Below, piece by piece: positions 22,682 through 63,681 of a stretch of DNA of 64,000 nucleotides (positions within the stretch are counted from its first letter, which is position 1; every line of letters starts with the position of its first letter). Both the position numbers and the translations under genes were made by a program. Below the pieces are notes generated by a model. The model was not told the origin of the DNA. It ran no database searches and worked only from the letters and a program-made list of their open reading frames with translations. This DNA comes from Thermoplasmatales archaeon E-plasma (lineage in GTDB: Archaea > Thermoplasmatota > Thermoplasmata > Thermoplasmatales > Thermoplasmataceae), in contig KI542675.1 of NCBI GenBank assembly GCA_000496135.1, positions 310,001-374,000 on the forward strand. The letters are read 5' to 3'.

Positions 22682-23884
22682 TCATAGACCAGATTGTTTA
22701 TCCCTTGACCAGTTATTTGCAAAGTTTGGCGCAAACGCGGAAAAATATCCATACATGGACATAGGCTGACCATTAATATCGATTGGCGTTCCTGAACCCA
22801 AAGCAATCCGGGGAGGTATTGTTTGGGTATTGCCACCAGAGAGACAACCAAATAATCCAAGTGAAGAATCAAGTGTACCTGCGACAGTTACCCAAGGGTA
22901 GTAATAATTATTAACCATGAATACCCACATATATTTATCGCCCCAATTATTGTCAGCGAAGGGTGACTCATAAATTTACTTATACGCTGAACTCATGGCA
23001 TAATAAGTTGCAGCTACTAATAAACTAGCAGGAGCACCGGCAATAACTCCCGCAATTCCACCTGCAAGTCCGAATAGAGTCCCTGTCAGAATAGTCTCAA
23101 GTATTTCAGTTATATCTACTGTCTGGCTCACCCTGCTGTAATAGGTCTGTGCAGGCATCCCTGAATAAATTGTATTAATAACGTCCTGTTCACTGAAATT
23201 TAATGAATACAGGTAACCAATCCTTGGTGCCCACCATGGACCAGGATGCCACATAGGAATACTGTAATGACTTATACAAACCATTTCCCATTAGCCAGAA
23301 ATATTCAAAACATTTGTTGGAGGGGTAGTGCTTGGACTCTCCGATCTGGAAAACAGGTAGTTAGAATTACTTGTTTGCATAACATATTGGCATTTTCTTT
23401 TAAATTTCCCACTATGTAACATTGATATGAATTCTATATGTGCAAGATTGTTTTGAGTGGCGAATTTTGCCTTTTCCAGAGCTGTTATTTCTCGCAAAAG
23501 TGACACTGCTGATGGATCCGATAGAAGGAACTGTGAGGTTAATGTTTTCAAACTTTTATTAAATTTTAAATTCATATGGAGATTTGAAATATGGCCGCCA
23601 TTGTAAGGATTTGCATTTTCCCTGTTAAGATACCATGAAACAAATGCATTTTAAAATTGATCCGATGCATTAACAGGTTTCTGTATGAAATATCTGTCAT
23701 ACTCAATCTGTTGCTTCACGGATACCGTTGCTGTCCTCTGATTACTATGAGTGGTTGCAGGTTGCATTGCCATTCCCATAAATAATACCACAATTACAAT
23801 TGCTGTTATTGATAATAGAGCTTTTCTAAGTTCCATAGCACCGAAGTGTGGAGGGGTAGGATTAATAAAAATTCCTTGACACAT
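22682..23884 (-). pseudogene. Secreted protein gene interrupted by three in-frame TAA codons
   Basis: Four segments lie in one minus-strand frame: 23884-23651, 23575-23291, 23284-22976 and 22930-22682. The bases between them are also open in that frame, so only TAA codons at 23651-23653, 23291-23293 and 22976-22978 interrupt a reading frame of about 400 codons. The first segment has a strong signal or anchor helix (from ATG 23836). The third has a Gly/Ala-rich hydrophobic helix like a pore-forming or bacteriocin-like segment. The last is rich in Tyr, Trp and Gly. A TATA-like box lies near 23913-23920. It could be a recently silenced gene, a run of small genes, or a readthrough gene; I favour silencing. 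Confidence 0.55.
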
Positions 23885-24391: not shown

Positions 24392-24399
24392 TTTATAAA
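24392..24399 (+). promoter_or_regulatory. TATA box of the GA-tract surface-protein operon
   Basis: TTTATAAA is centred about 26 bases before position 24422. The transcript should start a few bases before ATG 24429, which makes this ATG the natural start codon even though it is out of frame with the long gene body. Confidence 0.6.
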
Positions 24400-24444
24400 T
24401 ATTATAGTGCTCGGGGTTCGAAGTAAAAATGAATAATATTCTGT

Positions 24445-27120
24445 TTGAAAGAGAGAGAGAGAGAGAGAGAGACCGAGATCAATGCGCTTAAACTAATCTT
24501 GATTTTGTTGATTTCTATGATGATGGCCATACCTATAATTCAACATGTTCAAAGTGAATATTCATCCACACCTGTGGAATCATATTCATATTACAATGAA
24601 ATGGTAAAATTCATCGGTCAAAACGTTTTCATCGGATTTGGATATAACATATATCCAGTTTCATGGACACTGTTAAAAGAAAATTATGTTTCCCCAAAAA
24701 ATGGGGTGGTTAATCCATTTACCGCACAAATAAACACTTCATCTCCCCTTATAAAACAGACATTCTCACACTATTACGTTAAGAGGATATCAACCGGTCA
24801 ACAGAATTCTGCCATTATGGTGGAATGGAATAGCAATATTAGGATTGCTGAGATATTTACTTTTTTAAATAATTCAATAGATGCTTCCATATCAATTAAA
24901 AACATAGGTGTTTCATCTTTATATATGAGTGTATTTTCAATTTCTACAAATCATCATGCTCACGCTTCTGTTAATGGGCTTTCTCCGGAAGCTTTCAATT
25001 CAACCAGTGGTAATATCATTATACCTGGAAATGACAATCAGGTTTTCATTGGACACGTTTCAATAAATTGGGGTTCAGAATCATCTATATTTAGTATAGG
25101 AGCAATTCAAAATTCCGGAGGCAGAGACATACTCACCCTTCCGTTTAATGTTGGAGTCCTTTCTCCAAATGAAACATATACAATAGATCCAATTATTAGA
25201 TCGGGGCCAATTTCGCCAATAGTCAGAATTCCAAGTCCTCCTCCACCTGCAACTTCTCATGTAGTATTTACCGAAAATGGTCTCCCTTCTGGTGCTGGAT
25301 GGTCGGTTGTTTATGGTGGACAAATTCACACATCATCATCAACAACGTTAACTTTATCCAGTTCAGCAGGAACCAATAGCTTTTCGGTTGGCGCAGTTAG
25401 CGGACAAGGACAAATAGCGGAATATAAACCTTCTCCCGCATCGGGTTCTGTAGTTGTCTCTTCATATTCCACATCATATGTTTCAATAAGTTATACTGCA
25501 ATAAAAGCCGTAACCTATGTTGTAACTTTTACCGAATCTGGGTTGCCTTCAGGTACTGAATGGACTGTCACAATTAACGGAGAAACACATTCATCCAGTT
25601 CCTCCTCCATTTCTTTCAATTTATACAATGGGACTCATTCTTATTCAATATCTACGCCATATGGATATTCAACTGGACAATCTTCTGGTTCTATTGATGT
25701 CAACGGGGCTGCAAAGAACATTGAAGTTAATTTTCATGCGCTTTATCCCGTGCAACTGACAGATTTGAACATAACATATTGCGAAATAGGGGCTAGCATC
25801 GTGGGGCAGCATGATTATAGCAGTTTATCTTATCTTATTCAAAAGCATACAACCACACAAAGTGGAGCCAGTTCCTGGGGCATAGTTTGCGGGGGAATCT
25901 ATAATTTTACTGTGGCTGTCAATTATCATAATTCAAGCGGACCCGGTGTCTACTATATACCATATAATGTTGGGGGATACACTGTAAACGTTCCAGTTTA
26001 CTATGGTGATATGCAGATTTGGGCTCTCAATTCAGTGTCAGGTCTAAGGCAGCTTATTGCATACAAGGCCGTTCCCAAGGGCAACGGAACATTTACTTAC
26101 ACTTTTCAGATAACACCCGGAGTTTACGGTGGGTTCTATGTATGCTTAAACAATAAAACTTCTAATTCCGAAGTAAATCAGGTAGGGCAATTTGACGTAA
26201 AAACCACTTTTATGAATGAACCTCCTTGTCTTCCTCCCAATGCAAATAGCATTGCGCGTTACTTATTTTATGAATGCGGGATTGCGGCCGCATCTTCTTC
26301 TGAGGTGTATAATTCCACAGGTTCAATGATCGGTTATTTGACAGAATCGGTTCAAGGTTTAAACATAAATTATACTAAAGGGCAGACCAGATGCATTAAT
26401 TATGATTTTGGATTTTACAGCCCACAGAATAACGGGTTAAATGGGCACAGGAAATATGGGATTTTTTCATACAATCAGGCTATGGTGTTTAATGGGAATC
26501 AGGATCCAACTACTTATTCTTCTCATTGTCCATACATAGTCAACAATTATGGGGGTACAGCCACGCAAGGTGATTCCAACGGTGCGGCGACAAATGTATC
26601 AGAAGCCCTATATCTGGGGATAACTGCAGCACTTTCAATAGACCCTTATACTGCAGTTGTTGGAGTTGCATTGGCAGCAATGTACCCATTCGTTTTTAAT
26701 GAATTTAATTCTCCTCTATACCAATCAAAGCCTAATAATTTCTATTGCAACCAGACAGCAGTATGTAAGCAAATTTGGCTGTCGACGTCTGACTGTATTG
26801 AAACCGGTCCGAGTGTTTTACCATTTTTTAAAGTAATTAGTACTAGCAACGATAACGTCTCTCTAATTCAGGATGCTAAGGTATATTCTTTCTTAAAGGG
26901 ACAGCCAAGTAGCTTTTTATCGTGGATGACCGATCTTAATTTCTTTACATATACAGTTAACACAAGGATAGTACCGGTAGATTTAACCCCGCCAATTGGA
27001 GTTTGCCAGTATGATCTGGTAAATTATACAAGCTCTTGGTCAGGTGGTCCAACCGGATATACTGGCCCTTCTTATTCTGTTGCAGTATCAGAGCCAATTT
27101 ACATGGGACAGGTGGGATAA
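24445..27120 (+). CDS. Large Cys-rich secreted surface protein with two FTESGLPSG modules
   Basis: An 891-residue secreted protein. The N-terminus reads through the GA tract as Glu-Arg repeats, then a signal helix at about residues 14-33. Residues about 45-260 form a thermopsin-like beta region, followed by two beta modules starting with (F)TE(N/S)GLPSG at about 274 and 360. The C-terminal half has about a dozen cysteines and many N-glycosylation sequons. A Gly/Ala hydrophobic helix lies at about 725-750. The written start is TTG 24445, because ATG 24429 is out of frame at the present tract length. It is followed four bases later by a second secreted protein. It resembles Thermoplasmatales surface proteins; no enzymatic residues are recognised. 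Confidence 0.75.
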   Translation: MKERERERETEINALKLILILLISMMMAIPIIQHVQSEYSSTPVESYSYYNEMVKFIGQNVFIGFGYNIYPVSWTLLKENYVSPKNGVVNPFTAQINTSSPLIKQTFSHYYVKRISTGQQNSAIMVEWNSNIRIAEIFTFLNNSIDASISIKNIGVSSLYMSVFSISTNHHAHASVNGLSPEAFNSTSGNIIIPGNDNQVFIGHVSINWGSESSIFSIGAIQNSGGRDILTLPFNVGVLSPNETYTIDPIIRSGPISPIVRIPSPPPPATSHVVFTENGLPSGAGWSVVYGGQIHTSSSTTLTLSSSAGTNSFSVGAVSGQGQIAEYKPSPASGSVVVSSYSTSYVSISYTAIKAVTYVVTFTESGLPSGTEWTVTINGETHSSSSSSISFNLYNGTHSYSISTPYGYSTGQSSGSIDVNGAAKNIEVNFHALYPVQLTDLNITYCEIGASIVGQHDYSSLSYLIQKHTTTQSGASSWGIVCGGIYNFTVAVNYHNSSGPGVYYIPYNVGGYTVNVPVYYGDMQIWALNSVSGLRQLIAYKAVPKGNGTFTYTFQITPGVYGGFYVCLNNKTSNSEVNQVGQFDVKTTFMNEPPCLPPNANSIARYLFYECGIAAASSSEVYNSTGSMIGYLTESVQGLNINYTKGQTRCINYDFGFYSPQNNGLNGHRKYGIFSYNQAMVFNGNQDPTTYSSHCPYIVNNYGGTATQGDSNGAATNVSEALYLGITAALSIDPYTAVVGVALAAMYPFVFNEFNSPLYQSKPNNFYCNQTAVCKQIWLSTSDCIETGPSVLPFFKVISTSNDNVSLIQDAKVYSFLKGQPSSFLSWMTDLNFFTYTVNTRIVPVDLTPPIGVCQYDLVNYTSSWSGGPTGYTGPSYSVAVSEPIYMGQVG
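24451..24472 (+). repeat. (GA)11 microsatellite inside the 5' coding region
   Basis: Eleven uninterrupted GA units (22 bases) lie just after ATG 24429 and TTG 24445 and before the signal-peptide core of the secreted protein. At 11 units the TTG frame continues into the gene and the ATG frame ends at TAA 24489. At 12 or 9 units the ATG frame would be joined. At 10 or 13 neither would be. Such tracts are classical slippage sites. Confidence 0.9.
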
Positions 27121-27124
27121 ACAT

Positions 27125-27796
27125 ATGGACAAAACAACAAAGAAAAAGCTGGCTGCCATTTTTATTATTTTCACATTCGCTTTCACAGCATACGGTTTAT
27201 ATGATTGGACACATCATCCATATATTATGCCTCCTAAACCATTATATGGAATTGAATCAAACATTTGCAGGCAGGAATTGGTCAATGTTACACCATACGG
27301 AAATAATGTGGAAATAGGCATGGTAGGTGCGATTCTAGGATCATCCTCAAACAATTCTACGGATTTTGCCAATAGTGCAGGGAATATGGGAAATTTTGAT
27401 GTTTGGATAAAAGGAGAAAACCTTCATGTTCCCTTCGATGCTGTCACACTTGTATTCAGCAATTTTAACATAGCTGTTAACGGAACAGTTTTTAGGAATT
27501 TCACTCATCCTTATGACAGACATGATATTCTTCCCAATCTCAACGTTTCTCAATGGTTCACCACACAAATGCCATGCGGGGCTTATTGCTTTAGTGTCTG
27601 GAACGGACCAGATCTCTCAGTTCTGTTTGCTAATGATATGGCTTATGGAAGTTTTACCTACTGGGTAAATGTCACCGTGATCCCAATATTATTCCTTGGC
27701 CCATACTATTTTCCAGTGAATCCTATCCCAATGTCCCTTGTATTTCACGAGAACTATTCTTATCCTTACTGGTATTATAATAATACAATACCCTGA
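27125..27796 (+). CDS. Membrane-anchored extracellular protein, partner of the upstream gene
   Basis: A 223-residue protein with a basic start, a signal or anchor helix (about 10-27) and an extracellular domain rich in Asn-x-Ser/Thr sequons and aromatic residues, with one CGAYC pair. ATG 27125 is chosen because it lies four bases after the upstream stop and gives a good signal peptide; a longer frame from 27044 runs inside the preceding gene. No family is recognised. It probably functions with the protein encoded by the preceding gene and would share its switching. Confidence 0.7.
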   Translation: MDKTTKKKLAAIFIIFTFAFTAYGLYDWTHHPYIMPPKPLYGIESNICRQELVNVTPYGNNVEIGMVGAILGSSSNNSTDFANSAGNMGNFDVWIKGENLHVPFDAVTLVFSNFNIAVNGTVFRNFTHPYDRHDILPNLNVSQWFTTQMPCGAYCFSVWNGPDLSVLFANDMAYGSFTYWVNVTVIPILFLGPYYFPVNPIPMSLVFHENYSYPYWYYNNTIP

Positions 27797-49436: not shown

Positions 49437-52400
49437 ATGTCTAGGCAACCATTACAATATTCAACTTTCATAAAAATTGTTGTAATTGTAATAATAGCTA
49501 TGACTATATTTTCTTACGCTTCTTTTTTAAAGCCCAGTCAAGATTCCAATTCAAAAAAAGCTGGAACTAATTCGATTTCCATTCGCTTGGATTCTGCAGC
49601 ACAATATCCGGACAAAAGTTCTGTAAATCCATATGATTACACGGTTCAACCTGCACCGATCGGTATAGCTGATTTTGGAATTGGCGCATACGGAAAGCCC
49701 TATGAATATAATACTTCATCATTTGTTGGTTCTATAAACATTAAGAAACTCACTGCGTTTAATAGTAGCCTAGGAAGCCTTGGAGATAACAATCTAACTT
49801 TTCAGTTGAACTCTATTTTGGTGTTTGTGAATAATGGTACTCTTTATAATTACTGGATTCAGGATGTATATTATTACAATACAACAACTAGATTATTATC
49901 GATCAATAATAACATATGGAACTGGTCCAATCCGGTAGATCAAAATCTTACTTCATCCACAGTAACAGGGAATGGAACAATTTACACGGGATGTGCGCCT
50001 TCAGGTAATGTGTATATTGATTCACCTGCTGCGTCATCATTACTGCCAGGGAATTGCAAAGCTATCTCGCTCCCCAGGACGATCTCGCTGAGAATTAATT
50101 CCACTCTCGTGTCGAATGTCCCAGAGGTGATATTTCAATACAACAATGGAACATCAGGATGGGTAACTTATGATAATGCAAAATTTATTTTTGCAAAGAA
50201 TGTAGAGGCAGATTATGGTTTCGTCGTGAATGGTAATGTTTCTGCTCTCAATGGTCTATATTATGAAACAGACTTAATAGTAGGAGGTCCCGGTGACGGT
50301 ACAAAAAATATAATTACTGCCTCTAATATGACAATGAAGCTTGATTACGCCAATGGAAACAACTATCAATCAATAAATAACGCTTATGACTTTTCTGGAA
50401 ATACCGGAGAAGCTGTTTCAAACCTGACGGATGTGCTTAAGGAAAATACTACATCAGGGCAAATATGTGCTTCTTTGAATAATTCTGGATCTGGAAAGAC
50501 TGAAACAAATTATAAAACTACAACGCTATTTCAGGCAGATAATCTTTCAGCACTGGATTTTGTAAGTTCAGTGGATGATGGAACATTAATAGTTAATTCC
50601 ACGTCATACCATTTCACAGGAAACAGAATCAATTTAACACTTAAGCCAGGACCATATAATGTGCAATTGTGGCAGGGTTCGACGGAAGTTATGAGTGGAT
50701 CATATACCTTGCTGAAGGGAAATACTCTTTTAGTAATGTATAACGAATATATTGCAAACTTCTATGAAGAAAATCTCCCACCGGATACTTTCTGGAACAT
50801 TACTATTAACGGCCTGACCTATTATACGTATACAGATGCAATAGCAGTTCCACTGGCTACGGGTACTTATGCATTTAGTGTAGGAAAAATATACGGTTAC
50901 TCTGATATTACTTCCTCGGGTTCAATTAGTATTGGGAGTTCCAATGCTAGTAGTGAGATATCATTCTTTCAATCTGAAAAAGTGATTGCCGGGGCTCTTA
51001 CCATAACTGGTAATCTTGCAAGTTACGGGACTACAGCCTCTACATCTGAATATATAGTTGTTACTCCCGGTCCATCTTCGATGACAGTAAATAGAATATC
51101 TCTTATCTTTACTGGCGATGGTTCATTTGAGTTTTCCATCGGAACACAGCTTGGTAAACCAAACCTCTTGCAAAATGTCAGTGGGGGAACATATTCCTTC
51201 GGGAATAATTTTGGATGGGTTAATTTGACTTTTCCTTACACTACACTTTATGGAGGTGGTTTTTACTACCTTAACGTTTGGTTAACATCCACTTCTCCCG
51301 GCGGAACAAACGCTTTCCAGTTGGCACTTAATTATACAAAAAGTCCATTGGTATTAAACAAAAATTCGCTGAGTGGATATCTCGTTCAGACAGGCGCTAC
51401 ATATTACCTTCCCTATTTAAATCAGTATATGTTTGAATTATATTATGTGTCGTATTCTATTACTTTTACAGAATCAGGTCTCCCTTCAGGTGATATTTGG
51501 TACACGAATCTTTCAAACGATGAATCATTTACATCCTATTCTTCGTCTTTCACAATTGGCCTCAGAAACGGATCATACCAATACAACATTGCAACAAACA
51601 ACAAGATATACCATGCACCTGCATCATCATTCACAGTAAATGGAGCAGCTTTAACTGAATCGGTATCATTTTCACTTTACACATATTCAGTTACATTCTC
51701 AGAATCTGGATTACCAACAGGTGATCTCTGGTATGTGAACATAACAGGTCAAACATCATCAGGAGCAATAAATTCAGGATCAACTTATTCATTCTCATTA
51801 GCAAACGGATCATACCAATACAACATTGCAACAAACAACAAGATATACCATGCACCTGCATCATCATTCACAGTAAATGGAGCAGCTTTAACTGAATCGG
51901 TATCATTTTCACTTTACACATATTCAGTTACATTCTCAGAATCTGGATTACCAACAGGTGATCTCTGGTATGTGAACATAACAGGTCAAACATCATCAGG
52001 AGCAATCGATGCAGGATCATCATTCTCAATTGATCTCACTAACGGATCATACCAATACAACATTGCAACAAACAACAAGATATACCATGCACCTGCATCA
52101 TCATTCACAGTAAATGGAGCAGCTTTAACTGAATCGGTATCATTTTCACTTTACACATATTCAGTTACATTCTCAGAATCTGGATTACCAACAGGTGATC
52201 TCTGGTATGTGAACATAACAGGTCAAACATCATCAGGAGCAATAAATTCAGGATCAACTTATTCATTCTCATTAGCAAACGGATCATACCAATACAACAT
52301 TGCAACAAACAACAAGATATACCATGCACCTGCATCATCATTCACAGTAAATGGAGCAGCTTTAACTGAATCGGTATCATTTTCACTTTACACATATTCA

Positions 52401-53465
52401 GTTACATTCTCAGAATCTGGATTACCAACAGGTGATCTCTGGTATGTGAACATAACAGGTCAAACATCATCAGGAGCAATCGATGCAGGATCATCATTCT
52501 CAATTGATCTCACTAACGGATCATACCAATACAACATTGCAACAAACAACAAGATATACCATGCACCTGCATCATCATTCACAGTAAATGGAGCAGCTTT
52601 AACTGAATCGGTATCATTTTCACTTTACACATATTCAGTTACATTCTCAGAATCTGGATTACCAACAGGTGATCTCTGGTATGTGAACATAACAGGTCAA
52701 ACATCATCAGGAGCAATAAATTCAGGATCAACTTATTCATTCTCATTAGCAAACGGATCATACCAATACAACATTGCAACAAACAACAAGATATACCATG
52801 CACCTGCATCATCATTCACAGTAAATGGAGCAGCTTTAACTGAATCGGTATCATTTTCACTTTACACATATTCAGTTACATTCTCAGAATCTGGATTACC
52901 AACAGGTGATCTCTGGTATGTGAACATAACAGGTCAAACATCATCAGGAGCAATCGATGCAGGATCATCATTCTCAATTGATCTCACTAACGGATCATAC
53001 CAATACAACATTGCAACAAACAACAAGATATACCATGCACCTGCATCATCATTCACAGTAAATGGAGCAGCTTTAACTGAATCGGTATCATTTTCACTTT
53101 ACACATATTCAGTTACATTCTCAGAATCAGGCCTTCCATCAACCGATCTCTGGTATGTGAACATAACAGGTCAAACATCATCAGGAGCAATCGATGCAGG
53201 ATCATCATTCTCAATTGATCTCACTAACGGATCATATAAATATGTTGTTAATTCGAGTGAGGCTGGATATGTTGTAATTCAAGATTCAACGCAATTCAGT
53301 ATTAATGGTAGAGCAAAGACAATGAATATAGATTTTGTAGGAACTGGTGGAAAAGTAAAGGTAAACTTTTTGTGGTTTTATTTTCTTATAGGTGCTATTG
53401 GATTAATAGCCATTCTAATATTAATATCTCATAGAAAAAAATTGAGCATATTTGGTGTTCGATGA
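49437..53465 (+). CDS. Giant tandem-repeat surface protein (nine ESGLPSG-type modules)
   Basis: A 1342-residue membrane-anchored exoprotein. Signal helix at about residues 12-32; a large beta N-domain to about 440; a divergent module from about 442; a jelly-roll-like domain at about 520-675; then eight further modules of about 79 residues with TFSESGLPTGDLWYVNITGQ; a C-terminal anchor (about 1307-1330) ends in a basic tail. Copies within 51567-53237 are nearly identical in DNA. Sequons are abundant. A TATA-like AATATAAAA at about 49397-49405 lies about 36 bases upstream. It is probably a stalk or adhesin; exact function is unknown. Confidence 0.88.
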   Translation: MSRQPLQYSTFIKIVVIVIIAMTIFSYASFLKPSQDSNSKKAGTNSISIRLDSAAQYPDKSSVNPYDYTVQPAPIGIADFGIGAYGKPYEYNTSSFVGSINIKKLTAFNSSLGSLGDNNLTFQLNSILVFVNNGTLYNYWIQDVYYYNTTTRLLSINNNIWNWSNPVDQNLTSSTVTGNGTIYTGCAPSGNVYIDSPAASSLLPGNCKAISLPRTISLRINSTLVSNVPEVIFQYNNGTSGWVTYDNAKFIFAKNVEADYGFVVNGNVSALNGLYYETDLIVGGPGDGTKNIITASNMTMKLDYANGNNYQSINNAYDFSGNTGEAVSNLTDVLKENTTSGQICASLNNSGSGKTETNYKTTTLFQADNLSALDFVSSVDDGTLIVNSTSYHFTGNRINLTLKPGPYNVQLWQGSTEVMSGSYTLLKGNTLLVMYNEYIANFYEENLPPDTFWNITINGLTYYTYTDAIAVPLATGTYAFSVGKIYGYSDITSSGSISIGSSNASSEISFFQSEKVIAGALTITGNLASYGTTASTSEYIVVTPGPSSMTVNRISLIFTGDGSFEFSIGTQLGKPNLLQNVSGGTYSFGNNFGWVNLTFPYTTLYGGGFYYLNVWLTSTSPGGTNAFQLALNYTKSPLVLNKNSLSGYLVQTGATYYLPYLNQYMFELYYVSYSITFTESGLPSGDIWYTNLSNDESFTSYSSSFTIGLRNGSYQYNIATNNKIYHAPASSFTVNGAALTESVSFSLYTYSVTFSESGLPTGDLWYVNITGQTSSGAINSGSTYSFSLANGSYQYNIATNNKIYHAPASSFTVNGAALTESVSFSLYTYSVTFSESGLPTGDLWYVNITGQTSSGAIDAGSSFSIDLTNGSYQYNIATNNKIYHAPASSFTVNGAALTESVSFSLYTYSVTFSESGLPTGDLWYVNITGQTSSGAINSGSTYSFSLANGSYQYNIATNNKIYHAPASSFTVNGAALTESVSFSLYTYSVTFSESGLPTGDLWYVNITGQTSSGAIDAGSSFSIDLTNGSYQYNIATNNKIYHAPASSFTVNGAALTESVSFSLYTYSVTFSESGLPTGDLWYVNITGQTSSGAINSGSTYSFSLANGSYQYNIATNNKIYHAPASSFTVNGAALTESVSFSLYTYSVTFSESGLPTGDLWYVNITGQTSSGAIDAGSSFSIDLTNGSYQYNIATNNKIYHAPASSFTVNGAALTESVSFSLYTYSVTFSESGLPSTDLWYVNITGQTSSGAIDAGSSFSIDLTNGSYKYVVNSSEAGYVVIQDSTQFSINGRAKTMNIDFVGTGGKVKVNFLWFYFLIGAIGLIAILILISHRKKLSIFGVR
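51567..53237 (+). repeat. 237-bp tandem array in the giant surface-protein gene
   Basis: Six whole units start at 51681, 51918, 52155, 52392, 52629 and 52866, each 237 bp (79 codons), with partial units on both sides. Most of each unit is identical. A 35-40-base cassette alternates strictly between type A (AATTCAGGATCAACT) and type B (GATGCAGGATCATCA), giving a 474-bp higher-order period. Confidence 0.95.
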
Positions 53466-60137: not shown

Positions 60138-60159
60138 TCCATGAGTACCATTGTCTAGC

Positions 60160-63100
60160 ATGAATAAGCAATTTGCTATATTAGTATTGATTATCATGGT
60201 CCTGGGGGCGTTTGTCACGCTAGCCGGGAACAGCAATGCGCAGAATGTGCCATCTATGCAATCCCAAACAACAGGGATGGTTTCACTTTCTGCAGGGACT
60301 AACCACGTACTTAACAACATGAATGGCATAACAAGAATAGGAAATGTGTATGAGAAACAGTTATCAGTAATGATAACACTTAAGTTTAGAAATCAGGCCC
60401 AATTAAACAGCCTTTTAGCTAACTTGCAAAATACGAATTCTCCAATGTACCATAAATATTTGACATCTCAGGAATTCATAAATGAATTTTCACCTTCTGC
60501 AAGTGTCTATAACAGCATGGTAACTTACTATAAAGCGCTGGGATTTTCAGTTAAAACATACAATGACAGAACCTCTTTCGTTCTTGGTGGAAGCGTCTTA
60601 CAATTCAACAATGTCTTCCATGCTGGAATTCAGTTATTCGAAAAAGGTAGCTATCAATTCACGGCACCAACAACATCGGCAATGATACCTGCGCAATTCG
60701 CATCTCAGGTTATAAACATTGCAGGTATGAATAATGAACATCTGGCAACATTGAATCTGGTGAACCCAAATCCTCTGTTTACAACTTCATCTGGAAGCCA
60801 GTTATTATACGGTTCAGATATGCAGAATGCATATCAGCTTAGCCAGTTATACAGTAAATATGGATACCCAACAAACGAAACAATAGCAACAATCCTGTGG
60901 TCTGGAACTAACAGCGCAGGGGCATCTGTCGCGCCGTTTGTACCATCGGATATCTATAGCTACTTTAATAAGACGTTACCAGCAGGTGAGCCTCACTCTT
61001 CTGTATACGGGGCTCCACTTGGAGGAGCACCAGCACCTGGTCCATCCGCAGCAAACGATAACACCCAGGCTGATTTTGAGAGTACTCTTGATCTGGAAAT
61101 GGCAGGATCCGCTGCACCAGGAGCAACAGTGGTTGAAGTTTACGGACCACAGGCAACACAGACTTACCTTGACCAGGCTTTCTCATTTATATTGAGTCCT
61201 AGCTCTTCTTACCCACAGCTAACACACACAGTTGCAATATCTAACTCATGGGGAGGAACTGATATGACTGATGCAACATGGACATCAGATCTTCAACAGG
61301 CTGCAGCAATGGGAATATCTGTTTTCGCATCATCAGGTGATGATGGAAATTCTGGAACATCCGGAGCAGCACCAAGTTTCCCGGCAACGGCATCATATAA
61401 CACCTACGGAGCAACAGCAGTTGGTGGATTAACCACAACAGTATCTGGAACTGCATCAACAGATGGCAGTGGCACAACAGGTATATCGACAGAATCCGTT
61501 TGGTATAATACGCCTAATTCCGGTGACGGTTCACAGGGAGGAGTCAGTACAGTTTATGCGGAACCATCATGGCAGAAGGCAAGTTCTGATGCAAATTCAG
61601 TAATTACTGGGGCATCTGCAACAACAGGAGTTAGCTCAGGAAGAGGAACCCCGGATGTAGCAGCAGATGGAGCCAATATGGAAATCTGGATTTCCTACAG
61701 TGGAAGCACTGGCTACCAGGAACTCTGGGGAACGAGTATTGCATCACCTTTAACAGCAGGATTATTTGCAACGATGGATTATGCAGTTGGACACAAACTT
61801 GGGTTTGCAAATCCACTTATATACCAGCTTGCACAAGCTGAATATAACGGTTCGTACAGTTCCAGCAGGCCATTCTACTTTGTATCCAATGGATCAAATG
61901 CTCTATTTAGTGCTAATAATGGATACAGTCTGGCAGTAGGATGGGGGTCAATCAACGCAAATAACTTTGTAAATGACATAACATCATCCTCACCGACAAG
62001 CTATCCAGTAACATTCACTGAATCAGGATTACCATCCGGTACATCATGGTCAGTGACATTCAACGGACAGACATCATCCTCAACATCAACAACAGTTTCA
62101 TTCAGCGCAGTTGACGGAACATACTCCTACACAATAGGTGCAGTCTCAGGTTACACATCCTCACCATCAAGCGGATCAGTAACTGTAAACGGAGCATCGG
62201 CAGGAGTAAGCGTAACATTCACAGCGTCATCAACGCCGCCACCAACACAGACAGCTGCTACATATTCTATTGTAAATGCAACCTCATCTAACATTAATCT
62301 GTACACATTACCTGAAGCTGAGAAATTCACAGTTTCCAACACGGTTACTGTGAACAATGTAGTTCTTTACCTTGGTGGATCCGGAACAGTATCGTTCTCC
62401 ATAGGAACATCCTTCCAGGGTACTCAGGTATTGGGAGCAACAAATGTAGTTGTTGGATCTACAATAGGCTGGTATAGCACAACATTCGCAAATGTAACAC
62501 TTTCAGCAGGCACGGACTACTTCCTTAACGTAAACCTTGTCTCAGGAAGCACACAGTGGGGATACACCTCTTCAACTTCAACATCAGTTGACACAGGAGC
62601 ATTACAGGACTATTGGTACAGTGGATCAACGCTGACTCATGACAACTCATATCCTGATATATATTCAGTTGGGTATGTGCCTGTTTCATCCTCACCGACA
62701 AGCTATCCAGTAACATTCACTGAATCAGGATTACCATCCGGTACATCATGGTCAGTGACATTCAACGGACAGACATCATCCTCAACATCAACAACAGTTT
62801 CATTCAGCGCAGTTGACGGAACATACTCCTACACAATAGGTGCAGTCTCAGGTTACACATCCTCACCATCAAGCGGATCAGTAACTGTAAACGGAGCATC
62901 AGCAGGAGTTAACATAGCGTTCACACAGGATAAGTATCCAGTAACATTCACTGAATCAGGATTACCATCCGGTACATCATGGTCAGTGACATTCAACGGA
63001 CAGACATCATCCTCAACATCAACAACAGTTTCATTCAGCGCAGTTGACGGAACATACTCCTACACAATAGGTGCAGTCTCAGGTTACACATCCTCACCAT

Positions 63101-63681
63101 CAAGCGGATCAGTAACTGTAAACGGAGCATCGGCAGGAGTTAGCATAGCCTTCTCGGCTACAACAACCAGCTACCCGGTGGGAACCTATGTTATAGTAAA
63201 TGCAACTTCGTCGAATATCTATCTTTACACATTACCTGAAGCTGAGAAATTCACAGTTTCCAACACGGTTACTGTAAACAATGTTGTTCTATATCTGGGA
63301 GGTGGATCCGGTAAGGTTTCATTCTCAATAGGAACATCACGTGGAGGATCTCAAACGCTGGGAACTACAGATGTTACAGTAGGTTCTTCAACAGGTTGGG
63401 TTAAAGTATTCTTCAATGATGTTACCTTAACAGCAGGCACGGACTACTTCCTTAACGTAAACCTTGTCTCAGGAAGCACACAGTGGGGATACACCTCTTC
63501 ACCATCAGTTGACACAGGAGCATTACAGGACTTCTGGTACAGTGGATCAACGCTGTATCATGACAACTCATATCCTGATATATTCTCCATTGGCTATAAC
63601 ACACAATCAACAGCAGCAATACTGGGTCAGATGTTCTCTGACAACACAATGTCAGGCGTCAGCTTACCAAACATTTTTTAA
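60160..63681 (+). CDS. Large secreted S53 (sedolisin/kumamolisin-like) protease with C-terminal beta modules
   Basis: A secreted serine-carboxyl protease of 1173 residues from ATG 60160. Signal peptide (about 1-28), pro-kumamolisin activation domain (about 40-190), and the S53 catalytic domain (about 210-610): E307 and D311 (DFESTLD), oxyanion Asp394 (SSGDDG) and nucleophile Ser526 (GTSIASP). The remainder carries three near-identical FTESGLPSGTSW modules and two copies of a jelly-roll-like beta domain. Sedolisins work at acid pH, fitting an acidophile. No C-terminal anchor is seen, so it may be released or bound by other means. Confidence 0.93.
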   Translation: MNKQFAILVLIIMVLGAFVTLAGNSNAQNVPSMQSQTTGMVSLSAGTNHVLNNMNGITRIGNVYEKQLSVMITLKFRNQAQLNSLLANLQNTNSPMYHKYLTSQEFINEFSPSASVYNSMVTYYKALGFSVKTYNDRTSFVLGGSVLQFNNVFHAGIQLFEKGSYQFTAPTTSAMIPAQFASQVINIAGMNNEHLATLNLVNPNPLFTTSSGSQLLYGSDMQNAYQLSQLYSKYGYPTNETIATILWSGTNSAGASVAPFVPSDIYSYFNKTLPAGEPHSSVYGAPLGGAPAPGPSAANDNTQADFESTLDLEMAGSAAPGATVVEVYGPQATQTYLDQAFSFILSPSSSYPQLTHTVAISNSWGGTDMTDATWTSDLQQAAAMGISVFASSGDDGNSGTSGAAPSFPATASYNTYGATAVGGLTTTVSGTASTDGSGTTGISTESVWYNTPNSGDGSQGGVSTVYAEPSWQKASSDANSVITGASATTGVSSGRGTPDVAADGANMEIWISYSGSTGYQELWGTSIASPLTAGLFATMDYAVGHKLGFANPLIYQLAQAEYNGSYSSSRPFYFVSNGSNALFSANNGYSLAVGWGSINANNFVNDITSSSPTSYPVTFTESGLPSGTSWSVTFNGQTSSSTSTTVSFSAVDGTYSYTIGAVSGYTSSPSSGSVTVNGASAGVSVTFTASSTPPPTQTAATYSIVNATSSNINLYTLPEAEKFTVSNTVTVNNVVLYLGGSGTVSFSIGTSFQGTQVLGATNVVVGSTIGWYSTTFANVTLSAGTDYFLNVNLVSGSTQWGYTSSTSTSVDTGALQDYWYSGSTLTHDNSYPDIYSVGYVPVSSSPTSYPVTFTESGLPSGTSWSVTFNGQTSSSTSTTVSFSAVDGTYSYTIGAVSGYTSSPSSGSVTVNGASAGVNIAFTQDKYPVTFTESGLPSGTSWSVTFNGQTSSSTSTTVSFSAVDGTYSYTIGAVSGYTSSPSSGSVTVNGASAGVSIAFSATTTSYPVGTYVIVNATSSNIYLYTLPEAEKFTVSNTVTVNNVVLYLGGGSGKVSFSIGTSRGGSQTLGTTDVTVGSSTGWVKVFFNDVTLTAGTDYFLNVNLVSGSTQWGYTSSPSVDTGALQDFWYSGSTLYHDNSYPDIFSIGYNTQSTAAILGQMFSDNTMSGVSLPNIF
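62002..62207 (+). repeat. Module repeat copy 1 in the S53 gene
   Basis: First of three nearly identical 206-base DNA copies encoding the FTESGLPSGTSW module. The other copies are at 62704-62909 and 62935-63140. Confidence 0.9.
62704..62909 (+). repeat. Module repeat copy 2 in the S53 gene
   Basis: Second of three 206-base copies, differing from copy 1 at about two bases near its end (AGC for CGG). It is separated by 25 bases from copy 3. Confidence 0.9.
62935..63140 (+). repeat. Module repeat copy 3 in the S53 gene
   Basis: Third copy, closely matching the other two. Confidence 0.9.

Follow-up and report, generated by a model that had tools for sequence, protein, structure and literature searches.

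The window, a stretch of 64,000 nucleotides equal to bases 310001-374000 of a 911-kb contig, belongs to the genome of Thermoplasmatales archaeon E-plasma (1.66 Mb, 96% complete) and carries on its forward strand a gene for a predicted secreted protein, whose 5' end combines a promoter, two start codons, and a dinucleotide repeat. The TATA box (TTTATA, 24392-24397) is located exactly 37 nt before the first start codon, ATG 24429-24431 (ATG1). At the present repeat length, ATG1 is out of frame with the body of the gene, and its own frame comprises 20 codons followed by TAA at 24489-24491. The second start, TTG 24445-24447, lies 16 nt after ATG1 and is the only codon that opens the 891-codon frame of the body (24445-27120). 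The two starts, ATG 24429 and TTG 24445, are placed in different frames upstream of an uninterrupted tract of 11 GA units (24451-24472), the proposed slippage site, as is typical of the lic type of switch; TRF describes the tract as (AG)11.5 at 24450-24472 with 100% matches. It is followed by the predicted hydrophobic core of a signal peptide, INALKLILILLISMMMAIPIIQ (24478-24543), recognized from the translation and a hydropathy scan and conserved in the family alignment. Since the repeat unit is not a multiple of three and the tract runs without interruption between start and body, the layout is that of a contingency locus. The first-pass annotation had placed the promoter, both starts, the tract, and the body here, and all of these positions were borne out in the sequence; ORF translation confirmed that the ATG is out of frame and the TTG in frame. 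Its frame arithmetic is right as well: at 9 or 12 units the body would be read from the ATG, at 11 from the TTG, and at 10 or 13 from neither. On the same strand, 4 nt after the stop codon of the switch gene, begins an ORF for a 223-aa protein with an N-terminal hydrophobic segment (27125-27796). As homologues of this protein also sit behind members of the GA family in other genera, a two-gene unit may be under the control of the switch.

The encoded protein consists of a conserved N-terminal part and a beta-rich remainder with repeats of the form FTESGLPSGTxW. Its predicted signal peptide, a hydrophobic core after a charged N-region, is conserved across the family. No domain match was found in Pfam and no sequence relative in the PDB, and a search of plasmid and viral collections returned no relatives. 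The structure model contains beta strands and is of low confidence (mean pLDDT 55.8); Foldseek matches obtained with this low-confidence model include pilins and Ig-repeat surface proteins, at low TM-scores. The product is treated here as a surface protein, on its signal peptide and repeats only. FTESGLPSGTxW-form repeats are common to many other large ORFs in the same genomes. Within the window, the 1176-aa protein encoded at 60151-63681 carries SGLPSGTSW repeats, with two 231-bp units that are 98% identical, and resembles, by eye, a secreted sedolisin-type peptidase. Another ORF, 49437-53465, encodes a 1342-aa surface-type protein in which a 237-bp unit is present about seven times at 94% identity, and its repeat number is likely to change.

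A tract of this length is exceptional in its genome. From base composition, (GA)11 is expected about 1e-7 times per genome, and a pattern search of the 1.66 Mb revealed no other GA tract of at least eight units. Tracts of at least five units number four, namely the one in the window (11), one in a sister gene (6), and two 5-unit runs at C3:468475 and C3:567271, both of which lie within ordinary conserved coding sequence. The idea that codon preference produced the tract was ruled out: GAG is a rare codon for Glu (27 of 144 codons), while Arg is encoded by AGA in 41 of 83 cases. In the class as a whole, only 10 of 400 genomes contain (GA)8 or longer, and across the 77 genomes of the archaeal family, tracts of at least seven units occur in eight places. 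Six of these belong to the gene family considered here, including one at a contig end (G047:C71). The remaining two are a further signal-peptide start in G047:C212 and a tract in G015 that fits neither description. In the former (L114, G047:C212:13744-13757), (GA)7 directly follows the ATG of a different, 296-aa secreted ORF without an in-frame start. It was considered as a second switch family and set aside as a single case, given that five of its relatives lack a long tract and carry an ATG in frame ahead of the hydrophobic segment.

The long GA tracts found elsewhere in the class occur at positions other than signal-peptide starts. One of them, (GA)18 in L143 (G292:C73:35672-35705), is situated within a restriction-type gene (Mrr_cat_2 and the start of ResIII), where the frame before the tract differs from the helicase-like frame after it, so that the sequenced copy looks phase-off; this gene is a second candidate contingency locus in the archaeal class. 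The region between the target-recognition halves of type I restriction specificity proteins is a classic place for variation, and in L142 (G345:C2:78524-78539) an in-frame (GA)8 is found between the two halves of such a protein (Methylase_S).

The most direct comparison is provided by the orthologue in another species of the genus (L038, G001:C24), which is 92% identical at the protein level. The two genes match almost completely in their upstream DNA and without exception in the 80 bp that follow the tract, while the tract itself contains 10 GA units in the orthologue instead of 11. The body frame of this copy meets a TGA directly before the tract and has no ATG, GTG, or TTG before the signal core, which matches the state without a usable start that had been predicted for 10 units. 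Its body is nevertheless open over 889 codons and shows purifying selection against the window gene (dN/dS 0.22). Compared with the window, this copy has also lost 4 bp right at the TATA box, some 50-70 bases before the tract, so the G001 locus may differ in more than frame, and promoter strength may vary too between the two copies. Within the body, a scan in 150-base steps delimited a segment with approximate edges at 25648 and 26498 (plus strand of the window) in which identity to the orthologue falls to about 72-79% (near 91% at its edges), between sides of 96-99% identity. This pattern suggests exchange of a block by recombination, and the segment is a possible mosaic block.

A profile of the N-terminal region has matches, some of them weak, in 28 of the 77 genomes and 10 of the 19 genera, and 33 members from 17 genomes were examined. 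At least three GA units are present between promoter and signal core in 24 of the 33. Among these 24, an ATG is in frame in nine, a TTG or GTG is the sole in-frame start in four (the window gene included), and 11 lack any start before the core; beyond the two main genera, the calls depend on body frames and core positions that were chosen automatically. In-frame copies include G000:843434 and G003:C148. Nine in-frame ATGs out of 24 fit free drift among three frames, the counts being phylogenetically non-independent. In most members with at most two units, an in-frame start is present. The distance from TTTATT or TTTATA to the first start is exactly 37 nt in 14 of the 15 members from two genera, where the tract that follows this start comprises between 2 and 11 units and all three frames relative to the body occur. 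The constant spacing together with the changing frame indicates that promoter and start are fixed and that the tract between start and body varies.

The variation can be followed in closely related pairs, some of which share a member; most such pairs differ in unit number, which evolves faster than the flanking sequence. Besides the orthologues (11/10), six further pairs differ in their number of units (6/4, 6/3, 9/7, 11/9, 5/3, and 10/5), as is expected of contingency loci, and their 80-bp flanks are 79-100% identical and nearly gap-free, with gaps only in 11/10 (upstream flank) and 10/5 (cut contig end). A tract of fixed length in relatives had been named in advance as evidence against switching; this was looked at, and the unit number varies. 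As the relatives compared are species representatives assembled as MAGs from short reads, and dinucleotide runs can be miscounted, part of the variation might be ascribed to assembly or sequencing error in the repeat. A 22-nt tract is, however, well within a short read, and the frame also differs in genomes from several sites and in tracts of 3-6 units, which are unlikely to be miscounted; this makes the explanation scarcely credible. One point against the switch model is that some copies have short or eroded tracts of 2-4 units, which would slip rarely.

It could be assumed that the out-of-frame copies are ordinary decaying pseudogenes and that the tract is a hot spot of breakage. Truncated or stopped copies do occur: G000:174231 has only 71 codons, G054:C100 an early TAA, and G001:C18 an internal deletion. 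In the last of these (L039, G001:C18:6510-7166), the N-terminal part runs straight into the C-terminal part, for a total of 339 codons, which looks like a deletion of the middle. Most start-less copies, by contrast, keep stop-free bodies of 330 to 1048 codons with low dN/dS, and breaks in pseudogenes would not be limited to the GA tract. Over the first 249 codons, dN/dS is 0.17 between G000:4537 (6 units, no start) and G000:843434 (4 units, second start in frame), and it is 0.41 between two start-less G078 copies. In-frame and out-of-frame states thus occur side by side with conserved bodies (dN/dS 0.17-0.41), as in contingency loci. The adjoining divergent gene (22682-23836, minus strand), which has a signal-peptide-like start and is intact in G001 (386 aa), serves as a comparison. 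In the window genome it contains three internal TAA stops, all in one otherwise open frame, at a divergence similar to that of the switch gene; disuse therefore leads to decay here within such a period, and the switch gene has not decayed. It is an imperfect control, since its pairwise dN/dS is still 0.37, a value that is expected if its loss was recent. In view of the long open bodies under purifying selection, the pseudogene explanation was rejected as quite improbable.

A second way to deprive the tract of its proposed role is to place the true start downstream of it, or to regard the tract as a leader, e.g., a purine-rich ribosome-binding element, of which the length would be irrelevant. 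The GA-rich sequence does partly resemble a Shine-Dalgarno element, and in a few members a start codon falls within the hydrophobic core or at its edge, e.g., in G078:C41 and C48, where the core begins with an ATG; in those few members, such starts could give a shortened product, which is a further point against the switch model. In the window gene and most members, on the other hand, the next start codon in frame is within the hydrophobic core, so that its use would destroy the signal peptide. The 37-nt promoter spacing is fixed at ATG1, and members that have lost the tract use an in-frame ATG upstream. This explanation is therefore considered very unlikely.

The preferred explanation is translational phase variation by slippage in the GA tract, similar to that of bacterial contingency loci, to which a probability of about 0.85 is assigned from sequence comparison. 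It is proposed that the conserved TATA promoter places the mRNA 5' end immediately upstream of ATG1 and that the ribosome would initiate at this codon, or perhaps 16 nt further on at the second start, and then translate the GA tract and the signal peptide. Replication slippage would add or remove a GA unit and thereby move the frame between start and body by 2 nt. With ATG1 in frame, the secreted protein would be made; at 11 units, the state of the window, it would be made from the second start, perhaps more weakly; and at 10 units, the state of the orthologue, it would not be made. Whatever the frame, GA repeats encode Arg and Glu and are free of stop codons, so that a change of length which preserves the frame would affect nothing but the hydrophilic N-region of the signal peptide. 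A genome would contain several related secreted proteins controlled in this way, each through a tract of its own. The model presupposes that slippage proceeds within a population often enough to be of use, that switching is reversible, that expression depends on the frame, and that surface variation is the benefit. Neither MutS nor NucS was detected in the genome, under a search that gave positive matches in control genomes, and slippage would be favored by the lack of detectable MutS or NucS. The proposal of the first-pass annotation that a GA tract phase-switches a secreted protein is well supported by these comparisons, that is, by 11 versus 10 units in the orthologues and by tracts of 2-11 units, three frames, and intact, selected bodies in the sister genes.

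The debatable issue is whether the two starts yield more than an on and an off state. It had been suggested that starts 16 nt apart and in different frames result in three levels of expression, strong from ATG1, weak from the second start, and off when neither is in frame. The part of this claim that concerns the second start gained support, because a start pair with the same 16-nt distance recurs in six members (ATG/ATG, GTG/ATG, and ATG/TTG), and in three of them, the window gene, G000:843434 (with a 1084-codon frame), and G000:174231, the second start is in frame. The other three have no in-frame start at all, and in none of the six two-start members was the first start found in frame. Moreover, a second start codon is missing at this position from four other members of the G003/G046 type, so the arrangement is not general, and no Shine-Dalgarno-like sequence is evident before the second start. 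Three expression levels are plausible; as an explanation of the dual start, graded expression is tentative, and its chances are put somewhat below even.

The proposed switch most closely resembles, by analogy, the CT-repeat signal-peptide switches of Helicobacter pylori and the dual-start CAAT loci of Haemophilus. In the outer-membrane protein genes oipA, sabA, and babB of H. pylori, which contain CT repeats, and in the opa genes of Neisseria, which contain CTCTT repeats in the leader, slippage shifts the frame. As in the archaeal genes, a short repeat in or before the signal-peptide region changes the frame in a multigene surface family, and in both bacterial families each copy is set independently. 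The archaeal genes differ in having no sequence relation to these systems, in carrying GA on the coding strand just after the start, in their TATA promoter, and in belonging to free-living organisms. The lic loci of Haemophilus influenzae have CAAT repeats and several start codons in different frames, an arrangement that allows graded expression. They likewise place more than one start upstream of the repeat in different frames, although the grading is only predicted for the archaeal gene, which also differs in its dinucleotide unit and in encoding a secreted, structural-type protein rather than an enzyme.

As for archaea, a survey that included 18 archaeal genomes described a statistical excess of short homopolymers, poly(A) and poly(T), at the 5' ends of genes in prokaryotes (PMC2831843). 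Those tracts are likewise slippage-prone and near gene starts, archaea included, but the passages of the survey considered here describe no gene family with observed frame states, unlike the GA family. The VARTIG loci of Thermococcales encode variable archaeal proteins with Ig-like domains that are varied by gene replacement, and the passage on phase variation in that paper concerns shuffling of the recombinase type and not repeats as in the present case (PMC8416519). In a review of phase variation from 2025, archaea are mentioned solely as a direction for future work (PMC11868660). In the open-access literature, no archaeal gene family switched by such repeats was found.

Repeat-based contingency loci are a textbook bacterial strategy and have been studied mainly in pathogens that face host immunity. 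It can be proposed, with the odds about evenly divided, that this archaeal family maintains a repertoire of several secreted surface proteins in a genome, with a separate GA switch for each and with two starts and three levels for some, and that frame switching and sequence exchange may act together, in a manner comparable to the opa proteins of Neisseria or the outer-membrane proteins of H. pylori, in free-living organisms with no animal host. Start-less or TTG-started ORFs of this kind in annotated genomes may then be switched-off genes, not pseudogenes. If the switches are real, then a multigene GA-switch family in Thermoplasmata would show that the contingency strategy is used in archaea too, and the likely selective forces would be viruses, predators, or neighbours, not immunity.
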